The notes below the pieces were generated by a model. The model saw nothing but the letters and a program-made list of their open reading frames with translations, searched no databases and was not told where the DNA came from. The position numbers and the translations under genes were made by a program. This document shows, in pieces, positions 23,471 through 28,862 of a stretch of 64,000 nt of DNA. Source of the stretch: Anaerolineae bacterium (GTDB lineage: Bacteria; Chloroflexota; Anaerolineae; Aggregatilineales; UBA3940); the NCBI GenBank assembly GCA_016926255.1, contig JAFGOY010000035.1:1-64000 (forward strand), given 5' to 3'. The stretch's first letter is position 1, and each line of letters starts with the position of its first letter.

Positions 23471-24496
23471 TCAGCAGAACGGCCTGCGGTAGACGATCTG
23501 CATTTCGACTATACGGTAGCCGAGCTTCTCGTACAGCCCGTAGGCCCCGTTCCTGTTTTCGGTGTGAACGCCGAGCGCCGCTTCTTCCATCCCGCGCTCT
23601 TTGAGTTCCTGGAGGCTGAGATTGATCAGCGCGGTGGCGACACCCTTCTTACGCCACGATTTGTGGGTCGAGATTTCCTCGGTGTAACCGCGCTTGCGGT
23701 TATATCGCTCGTTCTCTTCGACGTTGATGTAGGGCTTCACCTGCCCGGCGACCCTGTCGCCGTCCCAGGCGATCTTCCACAGGCTGGCATCCATGTGCGG
23801 GAAATCCAGATAGTTCTGGAACGCCTTGTCCAGATCGTCCGCCTCGATGAAGCCAAAGTGATCGCGGAAGGCTTCCTGATCGGCATCGAAGATGGGCCGC
23901 AGGTGGCTTTCCTCGACCGGGCGAAGTTCAAGCCCTTCGGGCAGCACCGCCTCCGGGATCGGCTCGCTGAGCGGACGAACCATGATTGCACCGTAGGTGA
24001 ACGGCTGATAACCTCGCGACTCGACCAGCGCCTTCTTGTCGGTCTCGGTATCGAGAATCCACGACTGGAAGTACTGCTCGTGACCGGTCTTGTTCCGGGC
24101 AGCCAGCGCCCGGAGATGCTTCTCGGCATAGTCGAGCAGGATCGACTCGATGCGCCTGCCGCGCCAGTCGGGTGCGACCAGCAGCCACCAGTGATAGATG
24201 CGCTCGTCGTTTGGCTCATCGGCCCAGGTCATGCCGCAGTAGGCAACCGGGCGATCTCCGTCGAAGGCGAGAACCATGTCTCTTTTCAGGTCGAAGTTCA
24301 CGAACCAGTTGTAAAGGTGCTCCAGTTCCTCAGCCGTCGGCAGCATTTGCGCTTTGTCGACCGTGTTCGAGTCGGAAAGCACCTGCCAGATGTTGAAAAG
24401 GTCTTCTTTTCCTCTTGCCAGCCGGATGGTCAGGCCGGGCAGGGTTGGTAAAGCGGGTAGTTCGGTATGAATGCGATACCCGTCGATTGCTAACAT
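23471..24496 (-). CDS. Tandem-GNAT N-acetyltransferase B
   Basis: 341 residues with two GNAT folds in one chain (about 20-165 and 185-341), an arrangement known from mycothiol synthase MshD and related acetyltransferases. The C-terminal copy has the acetyl-CoA loop SWRKKGVATALI and the NRNGAYGLYEKLGY end motif. The N-terminal copy has DWRGRRIESILL, which looks degraded at the CoA loop. It begins 6 bp after the stop of its paralogue 24503-25579, so the two form an operon behind the long leader at 25580-26094. Acceptor substrate unknown. Confidence 0.87.
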   Translation of the reverse strand: MLAIDGYRIHTELPALPTLPGLTIRLARGKEDLFNIWQVLSDSNTVDKAQMLPTAEELEHLYNWFVNFDLKRDMVLAFDGDRPVAYCGMTWADEPNDERIYHWWLLVAPDWRGRRIESILLDYAEKHLRALAARNKTGHEQYFQSWILDTETDKKALVESRGYQPFTYGAIMVRPLSEPIPEAVLPEGLELRPVEESHLRPIFDADQEAFRDHFGFIEADDLDKAFQNYLDFPHMDASLWKIAWDGDRVAGQVKPYINVEENERYNRKRGYTEEISTHKSWRKKGVATALINLSLQELKERGMEEAALGVHTENRNGAYGLYEKLGYRIVEMQIVYRRPFC

Positions 24497-24502
24497 GATC
24501 GT

Positions 24503-25579
24503 TTACTCCTCTTTCGTTGGTTCTGCAAAAGCGGACTCTTCTTTCCGCTCGTCGTCGTCAATTGTGGTGGTCATCAGATCGATGCCGGGCCGGAGTGTTT
24601 TCTCCATGAGCGTCAGCTGGTTGAGCTTCCGCATCCCGGCTTTCTCGTACAGCGCCGTCGCATTGGTCAGGTTTTGACTGTCGACCGACAGCCCGACCTG
24701 GCGGTAACCACGCCCCGCAAACTCACGAAAAGTGTGATGGAGCAGGGCCAGCGCGATCCCGCGCCTGCGCCAGGGACGCTTGACGCCCAGGCTTCGCACC
24801 CAGGCGACATCTTCGCCGAGGCTGTCGTAGGGATTGTTCAGGGCAAACCCGGCGATCTCGCCGCCGTCCATCGCCAGGAACCAGACCGCCGGATCGTGCC
24901 GGTCGTTGTCCAGCGAGTCGTGAAGGAACATTTTGAACTGCTCCTCGAAGGGCTGCTCCACTATTCCCCAGTGATCCTTGAACGCTTCAACGTCGGCCTT
25001 ACAGACTGCGCGGTATTCGTCGATGCCTGCGCCGTATTCGGCCATGGAGATGACTTTGATCCCGTCAGCCCAGACCGGTTCCGGCAGATTGCCGTCCAGG
25101 TTGATGATCATGCGGGTGAAGACGCGGGTCATCTGGTAGCCCAGTTCATCGAGCAGTTCCAGACTCGGCGCGTCGTTGGCGTAGGCATGGGCGACCAGTG
25201 ATACCTTGTAGGCCGGGTCGGCCAGCTTGAGCCGGTCACGGGCCACGCCTTCGACCCAGTTGGTGACGAAGGTGCCGATGCCCAGATCATGGTGATCGGG
25301 GTGGACACGGATGTAGGTGTAGGGGCGCGTATGTGTCGCCACCCGATCCCAGAATTCACCGTAGGCAACGATTGTCCCATCGGGTGCGGCGACCACGCGG
25401 GTAAGCTCGTCGAGATCGTAGCCCGGCTCCTGCCAGTCCTGGACGAGTTCTTCCTCGTCCATCGCGTCGGTGCCGAGCACGGCCTGCGAGTGGGCGTTGA
25501 GCGCCGCTACAACTGTCGCCGCGTCTTCCATCCGGGCGGGGCGGATGATGTAGCCTTCGGGTAGTGTCTGGTTGGTCAT
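24503..25579 (-). CDS. Tandem-GNAT N-acetyltransferase A
   Basis: 358 residues, two GNAT domains. N-terminal copy: YIIRPARMEDAATVVAALN, HPDHHDLGIGTFVTNWV, NDAPSLELLDELGY. C-terminal copy: RPWRRRGIALALLHH with the pyrophosphate-binding RRxGxA/G loop, and NLTNATALYEKAGM. Ribosome site AAGGAAG precedes the ATG. First structural gene after a roughly 515-nt leader containing two tiny ORFs and terminators, so its expression is probably conditional. GNATs acetylate antibiotics, amino-sugars, thiols or proteins; the substrate here is unknown. Paralogous to the next gene, presumably by duplication. Confidence 0.88.
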   Translation of the reverse strand: MTNQTLPEGYIIRPARMEDAATVVAALNAHSQAVLGTDAMDEEELVQDWQEPGYDLDELTRVVAAPDGTIVAYGEFWDRVATHTRPYTYIRVHPDHHDLGIGTFVTNWVEGVARDRLKLADPAYKVSLVAHAYANDAPSLELLDELGYQMTRVFTRMIINLDGNLPEPVWADGIKVISMAEYGAGIDEYRAVCKADVEAFKDHWGIVEQPFEEQFKMFLHDSLDNDRHDPAVWFLAMDGGEIAGFALNNPYDSLGEDVAWVRSLGVKRPWRRRGIALALLHHTFREFAGRGYRQVGLSVDSQNLTNATALYEKAGMRKLNQLTLMEKTLRPGIDLMTTTIDDDERKEESAFAEPTKEE

Positions 25580-25764
25580 TGTTCGCTTCCTTATCGATCG
25601 TTCTTGTCAGCCGGGCCGTGTTCGAACCGGCTGGTGATTTATAAATCTGATTTATCGTCTTTCCCGGCATTGAAGCACCGGGCTGAAATCAATGTGGGCG
25701 GCGAGCGACAGCGGCTCGATCTCCCCGGACGACCGCGAGGGCCGTCCCTGCTAATAATTCCGGG

Positions 25765-25788
25765 TTAACGCAAACGCACTCTGTTCAT
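25765..25788 (-). CDS. Leader peptide ORF 2 (MNRVRLR)
   Basis: Seven-residue ORF Met-Asn-Arg-Val-Arg-Leu-Arg then TAA. GGGGAG lies 7 nt before the ATG, an optimal ribosome site. It is downstream of a strong terminator and 185 nt before the tandem-GNAT gene. The Arg-Val-Arg-Leu-Arg run contains the Arg-X-Arg pattern known to stall macrolide-bound ribosomes in leader peptides such as ErmDL (MRLR). Translation and drug response are inferred, not shown. Confidence 0.5.
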   Translation of the reverse strand: MNRVRLR

Positions 25789-25831
25789 ATTTCTTCTCCC
25801 CTTTTGCTGGCAGTCTCTTCTTCTCGACAAC

Positions 25832-25869
25832 AAAAAAACGCTCCGGAACTTTCGGCAGGTTCCGGAGCG
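25832..25869 (-). terminator. Intrinsic terminator/attenuator in GNAT leader
   Basis: CGCTCCGGAAC and GTTCCGGAGCG (25839-25849, 25859-25869) give an 11-bp GC-rich stem with a 9-nt loop, followed on the minus strand by seven T residues. It lies inside the leader, before leader ORF 2 and the GNAT genes, so read-through is needed for their expression from the upstream promoter. Confidence 0.88.
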
Positions 25870-25906
25870 CGTTCGATGGCGTTGGGTTCGCCGGGCATGG
25901 TGCCCG

Positions 25907-25948
25907 AACAAAACAAAACGGCCACGAGGCTTGTTGCACCCGTGGCCG
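25907..25948 (-). terminator. First hairpin with T-rich tail in GNAT leader
   Basis: CGGCCACG/CGTGGCCG (25919-25926, 25941-25948) forms an 8-bp stem with a 14-nt loop, followed on the minus strand by TTTTGTTTTGTTC. It lies 29 nt after leader ORF 1. A probable second termination or pausing point. Confidence 0.65.
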
Positions 25949-25977
25949 GTAAACGCTTGGTGATTAACTGCTAGGCG

Positions 25978-26049
25978 TCAACGGTCAATAGGCGCACTCC
26001 GGCCTGGGCAGGCAGCGGTGGGAATGCCCGACATCTTGTGATAGACCAT
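25978..26049 (-). CDS. Leader peptide ORF 1 (23 codons)
   Basis: A 23-residue ORF beginning MVYHKMSG and ending SAPIDR, with a perfect GGAGG (26058-26062) 8 nt before the ATG and a consensus promoter about 50 nt further upstream. Two hairpins with T-rich tails follow. The peptide shows no run of one amino acid that would identify an amino-acid attenuator. Probable regulatory leader peptide of the tandem-GNAT operon, though it could be a free small protein. Confidence 0.55.
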   Translation of the reverse strand: MVYHKMSGIPTAACPGRSAPIDR

Positions 26050-26100
26050 AGTGTGCGCCTCCATTTCTTCAAAAGTGTATCGCCGTTGGCGACCAGGGAA

Positions 26101-26129
26101 ACAATAACACGGATTGCTGATGGAGTCAA
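26101..26129 (-). promoter_or_regulatory. Promoter of tandem-GNAT leader
   Basis: On the minus strand, TTGACT (26124-26129) and TATTGT (26101-26106) are separated by 17 bp. The predicted start point near 26094 gives a 45-nt lead to leader ORF 1. Confidence 0.65.
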
Positions 26130-26222
26130 CAGGGAATCGGAGAAGATAGCGTGACAAAGTGTGGGATGAAATGAGACGGGCATATGAACTCTGCTTGAAT
26201 CGCCCGACCAGATACAGTCAAT

Positions 26223-26330: not shown

Positions 26331-26858
26331 TTATGCCTCGCTCTCGCGGTGGGCTTTGATCCAGTCGATTTCCAGACGGAAGGGGCCGGAGCGTTTATCG
26401 GCGATGATGAACCCGAAAGAGCGAATCCGGCTTTTACTCAGGCGCATGAGGGGGAATGCCTGCCCGAAAAGCCGCGCGGTGAGGGCTTCAAAGGGCACAA
26501 TTACCTGTTCCCAGGCGCCGGGTTCGGTGTTGAAGCTGGTTTCGAAGCGATAGGGTGAGGCCATGTCGAGGGTTCGCAGGTTGAAACCGTAGGTCCGGCC
26601 ATCGCCGCGCACCCGCAGCGTGATGCCGTCGCAGCCGGAGAGATTGAATCGACCGGTGCCGCGTGTCAGCACTGAGGCGAATCCGCCGTTGTTCTCGAGT
26701 GAGACATCACCTTCGAAAATGGCAGTCTGGTTCTCTCCGGGGATAAAGCGGCTGCTCGACAGGCCGCCCATCACCACATCGTTCACCGGCTGCCAGGGCC
26801 GGAAATCGGCAGGGGCGGCAAAATCGAACAGGGTATGGAGCATTTCGAGATCATCCAT
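26331..26858 (-). CDS. CIA30-family protein
   Basis: 175 residues matching the CIA30 (complex I intermediate-associated protein 30) fold, a carbohydrate-binding-module-like beta sandwich. Characteristic stretches: WQPVNDVVMGGLSSS near the N-terminus, FEGDVSLENNGGFASVLTRG, ITLRVRGDGRTYGFNLRT and IRSFGFIIADKRSGPFRLEIDWI. Eukaryotic members help assemble respiratory complex I; bacterial members are mostly uncharacterised. No signal peptide, so cytoplasmic. The gene is monocistronic on the minus strand. Confidence 0.87.
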   Translation of the reverse strand: MDDLEMLHTLFDFAAPADFRPWQPVNDVVMGGLSSSRFIPGENQTAIFEGDVSLENNGGFASVLTRGTGRFNLSGCDGITLRVRGDGRTYGFNLRTLDMASPYRFETSFNTEPGAWEQVIVPFEALTARLFGQAFPLMRLSKSRIRSFGFIIADKRSGPFRLEIDWIKAHRESEA

Positions 26859-27037: not shown

Positions 27038-28096
27038 ATGGCAAATGAACAGGGTTTTAGCTGGGAGGATGTCACAACGCCGGACGATCTCAACCGGCTG
27101 GATAAGGACGGGCTGATCGCATTCCTGAAGAATCACCCAGACCGGAAGGTCAAGTCGGCACTGTGGAACGCCTGGCACGCAGCGAACATCAGCCGCGACC
27201 GGGTGGTCGATCTCTCCGGCGCCGATCTGCAATTTGCGAACCTCTCCAACGTATCGCTGCACCGGGTGAACCTCGCCGGGGCCGCGCTCGGTGAAGCCGA
27301 TCTCTCCGGCGCTGATCTGCTCGAAGCGAACCTCGCCGGGGCCAGCCTGTGGCAGACCCGCCTGCGCAATGTCTCCCTGTCGGAAGTCACCGATGGCGGG
27401 CTGCGCGGCGTCCGGCTCTACCGGGCGAACTTCCGGGGGATTCTCTCGCTGCGCTACGATCAGTTCATCGGCGAGGATGGCCGCTCGACGATCTGGGGGG
27501 AAGCCGAAGGCCGGTTCTACGAGGCGAAGGATGTCTACAAGACGCTCAAGGGCACCTTCGAATCCGCCGGGGATTACGAGGGCGCGAACTGGGCCTACGT
27601 CCGCGAGCAGGTGATGGAAAAGCTGATGTATGCCCGCGCGATGCCGCGCTGGTGCAAGCCCTTCCTCAAGCTGATCTACCCCCGCTGGCGCGATAAGCTG
27701 ATGGGCAAACAGGAGGACGAAGCTCAGGGATCGCTCGAATACCCGATCCTGAACTGGCTGCGTATGGAGTTCTCCGACAAGATCGCCCATTACGGCACGA
27801 GTCTCCTGCTGCCCTTCGCCTGGATGTTCGTCGTGCTGATCGTCTTTGCCGCGATCTACTGGCTCGGCGGGATGGTCACCTACATCGATCTGCACACCGG
27901 GACGCTCACCCCATCGACCCGGAATGTCTGGCACAACCTGATCTTCTCCGCCACGTCGATGTTCACCATCGAGATGGCTGCCTTGCAGCCCGCCACACCC
28001 TTCGTCGGGATGCTGGAAACGGTGCAGGCGTTCTTCGGCTTTGGCCTCACCGGACTGATCGGGTTTGTGCTGGGGAATAAGCTCAGGTATTCGTGA
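27038..28096 (+). CDS. Pentapeptide-repeat protein with pore-like membrane tail
   Basis: 352 residues. After a 55-residue N-terminal region come pentapeptide repeats (about 59-150): VDLSGADLQFANLSNVSLHRVNL and LSGADLLEANLAGASL (A[D/N]LxX periodicity) forming a right-handed quadrilateral helix. A middle helical section leads to two membrane segments (LLLPFAWMFVVLIVFAAIYWLGG near 255-278 and AFFGFGLTGLIGFVLGNKL at the end). Their spacing, with WHNLIFSATSMFT between, mimics two-helix K+ channels, but the TVGYG filter is replaced by TIEMAAL. So it is either a degenerate channel fold or an unrelated anchor. Function unknown. Confidence 0.78.
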   Translation: MANEQGFSWEDVTTPDDLNRLDKDGLIAFLKNHPDRKVKSALWNAWHAANISRDRVVDLSGADLQFANLSNVSLHRVNLAGAALGEADLSGADLLEANLAGASLWQTRLRNVSLSEVTDGGLRGVRLYRANFRGILSLRYDQFIGEDGRSTIWGEAEGRFYEAKDVYKTLKGTFESAGDYEGANWAYVREQVMEKLMYARAMPRWCKPFLKLIYPRWRDKLMGKQEDEAQGSLEYPILNWLRMEFSDKIAHYGTSLLLPFAWMFVVLIVFAAIYWLGGMVTYIDLHTGTLTPSTRNVWHNLIFSATSMFTIEMAALQPATPFVGMLETVQAFFGFGLTGLIGFVLGNKLRYS

Positions 28097-28296: not shown

Positions 28297-28533
28297 ATGA
28301 TCACGAACATCAAAAAATGGGGGAATAGTCTCGCGCTGCGACTTCCTAAATCGTTCGCTGCCGAAATCGGCCTTGACGAAAACAGTGAGGTCGAACTGAT
28401 CATCGAAGCGGATCAACTGGTCATCCGCCCGGTGAAACCGGCCACGCTCGATCAACTGCTTGAAGGGATCACACCGGACAACATCCACGGCGAAGTCGAT
28501 ACCGGGTCGCCGCAGGGAATCGAGGCATGGTGA
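28297..28533 (+). CDS. mazE: MazE antitoxin
   Basis: 78-residue AbrB-like antitoxin. IKKWGNSLALRLPKSFAAEIGL and LVIRPV match the MazE DNA-binding domain; the C-terminal LDQLLEGITPDNIHGEVDTG is the acidic toxin-wrapping tail seen in E. coli MazE (LAELVNDITPENLHE). The ATG at 28297 was chosen because it begins the conserved domain; a longer upstream frame crosses the repeat and operator. Overlaps mazF by 7 nt, so translation is coupled. Binds and inhibits MazF and probably represses the operon at 28260-28278. Confidence 0.93.
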   Translation: MITNIKKWGNSLALRLPKSFAAEIGLDENSEVELIIEADQLVIRPVKPATLDQLLEGITPDNIHGEVDTGSPQGIEAW

Positions 28534-28862
28534 TGGCGTCCCCGGATCGTGGCGATGTCGTCTGGCTGGCCTTCAATCCACAGGCGGGTCACGAGCAGGC
28601 GGGCCGACGCCCCGCGCTGGTGCTCTCTCCGGCGGCGTATAACGAGAAAGTCGGGTTGGCACTGCTCTGCCCGATCACCAATCAGGTCAAAGGCTATCCG
28701 TTCGAGGTCGCCATCCCCGACGGACTGCCGGTGACCGGCGTCATTCTCGCCGATCAGGTCAAGAGCCTCGACTGGCGTGCGCGGCAGGCAGATCACATCG
28801 CCACGCTGCCCGATCACGTTGTCGATGAGGTGCTGGAAAAGCTGCGGACACTGCTGTTTTAG
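28527..28862 (+). CDS. mazF: MazF endoribonuclease toxin
   Basis: 111-residue MazF/PemK toxin, close in pattern to E. coli MazF: RGDVVWLAFNPQAGHEQAGRRPALVLSP, CPITNQVKGYPFEV and ILADQVKSLDWRAR are all present. Such toxins cut mRNA at short specific sequences to slow growth. Conserved basic and Thr residues of the active site (QAGRRPA, PITNQ) are intact, so it is likely functional. Start is ATG at 28527 inside the mazE 3' end; ATG 28533 is an alternative. The recognition sequence cannot be predicted. Confidence 0.94.
   Translation: MVMASPDRGDVVWLAFNPQAGHEQAGRRPALVLSPAAYNEKVGLALLCPITNQVKGYPFEVAIPDGLPVTGVILADQVKSLDWRARQADHIATLPDHVVDEVLEKLRTLLF

Follow-up and report, generated by a model that had tools for sequence, protein, structure and literature searches.

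Leader translation attenuates transcription of the resistance genes ermK, mef-mel, and bmrCD, and the target of the bmrCD attenuator is an ABC exporter that responds to ribosome-targeting drugs by induction (PMC5418344). In the vmlR leader of Bacillus subtilis, an upstream ORF lies in the anti-antiterminator, and antibiotics that stall ribosomes on this ORF lead to read-through of the ABC-F resistance gene (PMC9226507). The hflXr leader rli80 of Listeria has a 14-codon ORF spanning the anti-antiterminator; an antibiotic-stalled ribosome permits the antiterminator to form, and a start-codon mutation abolishes induction (PMC6310831). The actinobacterial whiB7/wblC uORF senses several classes of ribosome inhibitors, and its full translation favours termination (PMC11550727). 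In the toiL leader of E. coli, tetracycline and retapamulin hold ribosomes on the uORF start codon while other drugs hold them further on, and the start-codon stalling by tetracycline or retapamulin throws the switch (PMC12121999).

Here, we describe a leader upstream of two tandem-GNAT acetyltransferase genes of an Anaerolineae bacterium (Chloroflexota), with a short ORF ending in the peptide motif R-S-A-P. The sequence analysed, referred to as the window, comprises the first 64,000 nt of contig JAFGOY010000035.1. The predicted working principle is that of ermK, vmlR, hflXr, bmrCD, and whiB7. As in the vmlR leader, an ORF in the anti-antiterminator is followed by an antiterminator, an intrinsic terminator, and a resistance-type gene. 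However, the vmlR leader has a three-codon ORF (MIN), one terminator, and no conserved C-terminal peptide, and serves one gene type in Bacilli, whereas the Chloroflexota leader has an RSAP ORF of ∼25 codons, usually two terminators, and many gene families behind it, its response to antibiotics being predicted. The hflXr leader differs in its RLR peptide of the macrolide class and its single terminator, while ermK, mef-mel, and bmrCD are Firmicute single-locus systems with unrelated sequences. The whiB7/wblC and toiL leaders control one locus each (a regulator and a toxin-antitoxin pair, respectively), whereas the Chloroflexota leader is repeated before many effector genes. Holding of ribosomes on the start codon, as in toiL, is the kind of event that the layout of the RSAP leader would report. 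The features that set the RSAP leader apart are the R-S-A-P peptide, the two terminators with related arms, the many gene families, and the phylum.

The peptide itself has parallels in SecM, ApdA, ApdP, ApcA, and YwcI, which, like RSAP, have a short R-x-x-P near the C terminus of the upstream ORF (PMC10951233, PMC10987492, PMC12992588). The R-x-(small)-P of the leader is placed as in arrest peptides of the RAPP/RAGP type, a resemblance of four residues only. The RAPP/RAGP peptides serve to monitor the localization of proteins or are encoded upstream of sacT, whereas arrest at RSAP is a prediction. The RSAP motif was looked for in two papers on RAPP/RAGP arrest peptides and did not occur there, and in the literature searched for leader-peptide attenuators of resistance-type genes in Chloroflexota we found no description.

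The leader of the tandem-GNAT operon

The leader and the operon are on the minus strand, where all elements listed in the first-pass annotation are present: the promoter, a 23-codon ORF with GGAGG, two T-tailed hairpins, a second small ORF, and the tandem GNAT genes. The annotation overlooked the C-terminal RSAP motif and its complementarity to the Shine-Dalgarno (SD) region and to both terminators. In the order of transcription, the features are as follows.

26101–26129, minus strand: sigma-70-type promoter TTGACT-17-TATTGT (TTGACT at 26129–26124, 17 nt, TATTGT at 26106–26101)
26053–26062, minus strand: SD sequence GGAGG (26062–26058) and segment 1, AGGCGCAC (26060–26053), complementary to segment 2
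25978–26049, minus strand: ORF1, putative leader peptide MVYHKMSGIPTAACPGRSAPIDR*, 23 codons, SD-preceded, its frame conserved elsewhere
25990–26002, minus strand: segment 2, the RSAP codons CGG AGT GCG CCT with the preceding C, as in the codon table of 82 leaders
25909–25948, minus strand: putative terminator T1 (segments 3 and 4) with a T-rich tail, hairpin 25948–25919 plus TTTTGTTTTG
25832–25869, minus strand: putative terminator T2 (segments 5 and 6), hairpin 25869–25839 with a perfect 11-bp stem and a 9-nt loop, then T7
25765–25788, minus strand: ORF2, MNRVRLR, with GGGGAG 7 nt upstream; judged incidental and outside the switch
25661–25693, minus strand: REP-like dispersed hairpin between ORF2 and the operon, just before the GNAT genes; outside the switch
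24503–25579, minus strand: tandem-GNAT acetyltransferase 1, 358 aa, the regulated gene (Pfam GNAT)
23471–24496, minus strand: tandem-GNAT acetyltransferase 2, 341 aa, second gene of the operon, 6 nt past the first (Pfam GNAT)

Segment 1 forms a perfect 8-nt inverted repeat with positions 25997–25990. Segment 2 can pair alternatively with segment 1, with the 5' arm of T1 and, in the window, with the 5' arm of T2. The outer stem of T1 is a perfect 8-bp helix, and its stem-loop has an energy of −21.4 kcal/mol. Taken by itself, the promoter is within chance (two sites against 1.4 expected in a 5-kb scan), and the same scan missed T1 and T2 because its loops were limited to ≤8 nt. The promoter, ORF1, T1, and T2 are significant because they recur at ∼80 further loci.

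At the gathering score, no Rfam covariance model matched in the window, and the leader family is absent from Rfam 15. With E up to 10, the sole match was a microRNA model on the T2 hairpin (24.5 bits, gathering 80). A long closing pairing in the leader had suggested 6S RNA or another structured RNA. This candidate was rejected: Rfam finds nothing, shuffled sequences fold as well as the 136-nt stretch (z −0.49), and 6S (RF00013) has no match anywhere in the genome.

The RSAP leader family

Plain BLAST with the leader in 61 relatives returned only the REP-like repeat, because the leaders are too diverged, and the route through neighbours of GNAT genes succeeded. Relatives of the GNAT protein occur in 56 of the 61 genomes and on four more contigs. 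At five loci (L012, L014, L020, L037, and L038), the GNAT genes are preceded by a short ORF whose product ends with R-x-[AV]-P and a few further residues, and one or two terminators follow this ORF; the leader of L037 heads an array whose first gene encodes another type of GNAT. A motif scanner requiring an SD sequence, R-x-[AGVS]-P at the C terminus, and a terminator no more than 200 nt away was applied to both strands of 635 kb and matched ORF1 of the window, the five homologous leaders, and one chance ORF.

A covariance model of 94 positions, from the RSAP codons to T1, was built from six sequences. With it, 180 genomes in a class sample of 396 matched at E ≤0.01, a count that uses a rough E-value; the best match outside the window had E of 1.6e-12, and 90 mostly high-scoring matches were inspected. 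In a sample of 400 genomes from the phylum, 39 matched. The best of them belong without exception to the same class, and just six genomes with a match come from outside it (E 2.9e-5 to 0.005). Among the weaker outside-class matches, several precede ABC exporters, and a clean ORF is often missing. Some genomes, e.g. G384 and G262, carry several leader copies before different genes. The leader family is widespread in Chloroflexota and previously undescribed in the literature searched. Weak matches in other classes of the phylum (L151, L153, L155) are found before ABC-exporter-like genes and a phosphotransferase-like gene; they carry sequences such as GRSMPFF and SLTMPFF and possibly belong to a related leader type.

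The typical leader has its own promoter, an SD sequence, and an ORF of ∼18–36 codons ending in (L)P[CS]RSAPxxR*. T1 ends ∼50 nt after the ORF stop, and then there is usually a second terminator, ∼100 nt after, found in 64 of 82 leaders by a search restricted to 190 nt. The SD sequence, start codon, and frame are not part of the covariance model. An SD-preceded ORF was found in the RSAP frame of 79 of the 90 model matches, compared with 6 and 1 in the other frames and 0.7% of control positions. A promoter with a score of at least 10 was found within 110 nt upstream of the ORF in 90% of leaders vs 3.3% of shuffles, the median distance from the −10 element to the start codon being 39 nt. By these two counts the family, like resistance attenuators, has a short ORF that is predicted to be translated.

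Among the 82 distinct leaders, Arg and Ser of the RSAP motif are each present in 73, Ala in 74, and Pro in 75, a conservation partly due to selection of the data, because leaders bearing the motif were used to build the model. Three residues before Arg, 65 leaders have L, V, F, M, or I; the residue two before is Pro in 59, and the next residue is Cys or Ser, also in 59. There are exactly seven codons from Arg to the stop in 57 leaders. The Arg is encoded by CGT, CGC, CGG, CGA, AGA, or AGG, and many codons are in use for the Pro and at the hydrophobic sites, a sign of selection on the peptide. On the other hand, nearly all leaders have AGT for Ser and GCG for Ala; this points to selection on the RNA, although it is partly built into the model.

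The first-pass annotation had stressed ORF2, as a possible leader peptide of the macrolide-arrest kind that would act on translation, or on a later structure, of the GNAT operon. Indeed, R-V-R and R-L-R of this peptide match the +X+ pattern (Arg/Lys-X-Arg/Lys), and RLR occurs also in the hflXr leader (PMC6310831). However, when the 260 nt after T2 were shuffled, 32% of shuffles contained a comparable object, that is, an SD-preceded ORF of ≤40 codons with a +X+ motif. Moreover, ORF2 is located past both terminators, beside the dispersed repeat, and has no counterpart at the other leaders. There, the first gene usually starts ∼110–210 nt after the leader stop, so near that there is no room for ORF2; in the window this distance is 401 nt. 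ORF2 is no better than chance, and the conserved peptide, the predicted sensor, is that of ORF1. Its conserved part is RSAP rather than RLR, and ORF1 of the window has no Arg/Lys-X-Arg/Lys at the conserved site, while ORF2 has the motif and is unconserved. This does not support the proposed assignment to the macrolide +X+ class, and we regard a role of ORF2 as an arrest leader as almost certainly wrong. The broader idea of a ribosome-inducible GNAT leader survives in another form, with ORF1 as the likely controller of a transcription attenuator.

Alternative pairings and the proposed attenuator

To characterize the RNA structure of the family, duplex energies of native partners were compared with those of partners swapped among leaders, with the consensus kept and 5000 permutations. 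The RSAP codons and the 5' arm plus loop of T1 (2:3) had a mean of −15.6 vs −14.1 kcal/mol for swapped partners (z −7.9, 0/5000), the SD region and the RSAP codons (1:2) −12.6 vs −11.8 kcal/mol (z −3.4, 0/5000), and the 3' arm of T1 and the 5' arm of T2 (4:5) −20.3 vs −15.8 kcal/mol (z −11.5, 0/5000). The negative control, the RSAP codons with the 5' arm of T2 (2:5), showed no excess over swapped partners family-wide. Kinship inflates such tests somewhat; in a set of 59 non-redundant leaders, which corrects for it partly, the results for 2:3 (z −6.5), 1:2 (z −2.7, 27/5000), and 4:5 (z −10.2) hold, but the null result for 2:5 does not. In addition, covariation links the third base of the Arg codon to its partner in T1 (complementary in 17 of 29 cases, 7.6 expected, 0/10000), and the T1 stem covaries among the first six leaders. 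Together these data support a six-segment alternative fold, as predicted from sequence, in the leader family.

These complementarities also bear on a simpler reading of the locus, in which T1 and T2 end an independent short transcript, from a gene for a small RNA or a small protein, and a separate promoter past T2 serves the GNAT operon. Both terminators are thermodynamically strong, and in the window the REP-like repeat is closely followed by an AT-rich TATAAA. However, an independent transcript would have no need for SD–RSAP, RSAP–T1, and T1–T2 complementarities that withstand partner swaps, and, across the family, T2 is usually followed directly by the start of the first gene, whose class recurs. 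We therefore regard an independent transcript as improbable.

In equilibrium folding of full transcripts, the mean for T1 was 0.80 with the start codon occupied vs 0.96, and 0.94 in the control with region 2 shuffled. As T1 and T2 win at equilibrium in nearly every state, the switch must act kinetically; since the start-occupied state lowered T1 only modestly, folding was moved to the RNA before the 3' arm of T1 exists, with ribosome-occupied regions masked. In this setting, 2:3 comprised on average 8.1 bp with a ribosome on the start codon, 7.1 bp with a ribosome on codon 5, 5.0 bp on unoccupied RNA, and 0 bp with RSAP occupied; with segment 3 shuffled, the control mean was 2.8 bp. The formation of 2:3 with an early ribosome and its absence with a ribosome at the end of the ORF correspond to the logic of the trp attenuator.

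We consider it likely that the leader is a ribosome-controlled transcription attenuator of the trp type, so that expression of the acetyltransferase operon would depend on the state of translation. The OFF set of pairings would be 1:2, 3:4 (T1), and 5:6 (T2), and the ON set 2:3 and then 4:5. In normal translation, the ribosome would reach RSAP or the stop codon and cover segment 2, and T1 and T2 would form. With no ribosome, 1:2 would form and be followed by the terminators, lowering antitermination. A ribosome held at the start or early in ORF1, as by ribosome-targeting antibiotics, would cover segment 1 and leave segment 2 free; the antiterminators would then form first, and RNA polymerase would read into the genes. 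The 4:5 relay between T1 and T2 would carry the ON state past the second terminator. In addition, an intrinsic pause at RSAP could park the ribosome on segment 2, tightening the OFF state. Sequence analysis backs the conserved ORF with its frame, the promoter, the terminators, the alternative complementarities, and the kinds of genes behind the leader; we infer which way the switch works, that antibiotics are the signal, and that RSAP slows the ribosome onto segment 2.

In another reading, a drug-bound ribosome would arrest at R-S-A-P itself, not early, and so switch the genes on. The conservation at the peptide level, with Arg encoded by both CGN and AGR and Pro and the flanking hydrophobics by many codons, is consistent with this, as is the likeness to the arrest motifs RAPP, RAGP, and RGSP (PMC10987492, PMC12992588). 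Still, when Ala is in the P site, the ribosome sits over segment 2, which makes 2:3 impossible (0 bp) and favours termination, and the nearly codon-fixed Ser AGT and Ala GCG point to RNA pairing for that part, so that we find induction by arrest at RSAP unlikely.

An attenuator of amino-acid starvation, in which the leader ORF senses a scarce aminoacyl-tRNA, would share the 1:2/2:3/3:4 geometry, which is that of the trp and ilv attenuators (PMC13236596), and whiB7 leaders respond to drugs as well as to amino-acid starvation (PMC11550727). By contrast, in the variable part of the 82 leaders no single amino acid forms a run or is strongly enriched, the largest excess being 2.2-fold (Met, Cys) and Trp, Glu, Gln, His, and Leu being depleted; moreover, the controlled genes are non-biosynthetic. 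Sensing of starvation thus seems very improbable.

We return to the proposed attenuator controlled by an early-held ribosome. In the family, the anti-antiterminator, antiterminator, and terminator are predicted to be mutually exclusive; the window copy has a comparatively weak 2:3, and its better-paired target is T2. The window leader is a diverged, atypical member of the family. Its 1:2 pairing is strong (−16.2 kcal/mol), its 2:3 pairing reaches −11.9 (−15.0 if the segments are taken slightly longer) and is formed mainly via GGCCGG/CCGGCC instead of the AGTGCGCC site, and there is hardly any 4:5 pairing (−5.8). Segment 2 instead pairs with the 5' arm of T2 by 10 bp (−23.8, the strongest of 64). 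In the RNA before the 3' arm of T2, the probability of this helix is 0.99 with the start codon occupied, 0.32 without a ribosome, and 0.0 with RSAP occupied. In the window copy, direct pairing of segment 2 with the 5' arm of T2 may replace the weak 4:5. Passage of T1 in this copy is the weakest point of the model.

Two weaker candidates were found in the same genome, L170 on contig C38 and L172 on contig C63 (E 0.05 and 0.14), preceding MFS-like and ABC-F-like genes named by reading their translations. Their ORF apparently starts at or near the 5' end of the transcript, and the RNA segments are found again, in a different reading frame. As the segments are kept and the peptide frame differs, the peptide may not always be needed; if these candidates are real, the RNA segments would be essential and the peptide an addition.

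The putatively controlled genes and the GNAT operon

The first ORFs downstream of the 82 leaders encode an ABC ATPase domain (ABC_tran) in 36 cases, 15 of them with an exporter membrane domain, GNAT proteins in 29, HAD hydrolases in four, ABC-2 membrane proteins in three, and MFS proteins in two. All six ABC-F proteins tested scored above the NCBIfam cutoff for ribosomal protection (414–445 bits vs 380), and one MFS protein comes closest to TetA(P), below the cutoff of that model. Hence, by family assignment, the genes behind the leaders appear to be of resistance types, namely ABC-F ribosomal protection proteins, multidrug ABC exporters, a TetA(P)-like MFS protein, and GNATs. It is mainly because of these kinds of genes that ribosome inhibitors are proposed as the signal, and the RNA switch probably turns drug-resistance-type genes on when ribosomes are blocked.

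Some leaders precede genes of other kinds. In L074, L083, L118, and L122 (and L069), the leader lies before a HAD-like hydrolase with no obvious link to resistance, and in L140 the first gene encodes a RIO1-like protein kinase with no obvious resistance role.

If the proposed attenuator is right, one leader type would govern ABC-F, ABC exporter, GNAT, and MFS genes across the class, and could serve as a sequence handle for uncharacterised ribosome-antibiotic resistance genes in uncultured bacteria. It would also explain the placement of the tandem GNATs behind two terminators, and would provide a conserved R-x-x-P peptide outside the protein-secretion setting, a candidate for ribosome pausing. 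We put forward only tentatively a class-wide module in which an intrinsic pause at RSAP would park every translating ribosome on the antiterminator strand, and any inhibitor that stops ribosomes short of it would open the two relayed terminators. If true, the copies before unrelated resistance genes would form a general ribosome-inhibition regulon with no transcription factor.

The nearest solved relative of acetyltransferase 1 is 3tt2 (E 3.8e-53). The mycothiol synthase MshD was considered as an identity for the GNATs and rejected, as TIGR03448 gave 56.9 and 27.3 bits (cutoff 163.1). In two genomes that lack the leader (L013, and L016 with L040 and L041), the GNAT homologue lies directly behind an ABC-F-like gene, this label being based on a DEPxNHLD motif read from the sequence.

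Several further elements surround the operon. The REP-like hairpin reads TTCCCGG..GAAGCACCGGGCTAAAATC on the other strand (TTCCCGGCGCTGAAGCACCGGGCTAAAATC type), and similar copies occur at several other places in the same genome, as well as one in genome G047. A second short dispersed repeat, at 26142–26199 of the window, lies upstream of the promoter and is ∼83% identical to sites on contigs C2 and C28 of this genome. A CIA30-domain protein is encoded upstream of the leader (26331–26858, minus strand), a pentapeptide-repeat protein at 27038–28096 (plus strand), and overlapping genes of a MazE-like antitoxin and a PemK/MazF-like toxin (Pfam) lie at 28297–28862 (plus strand).
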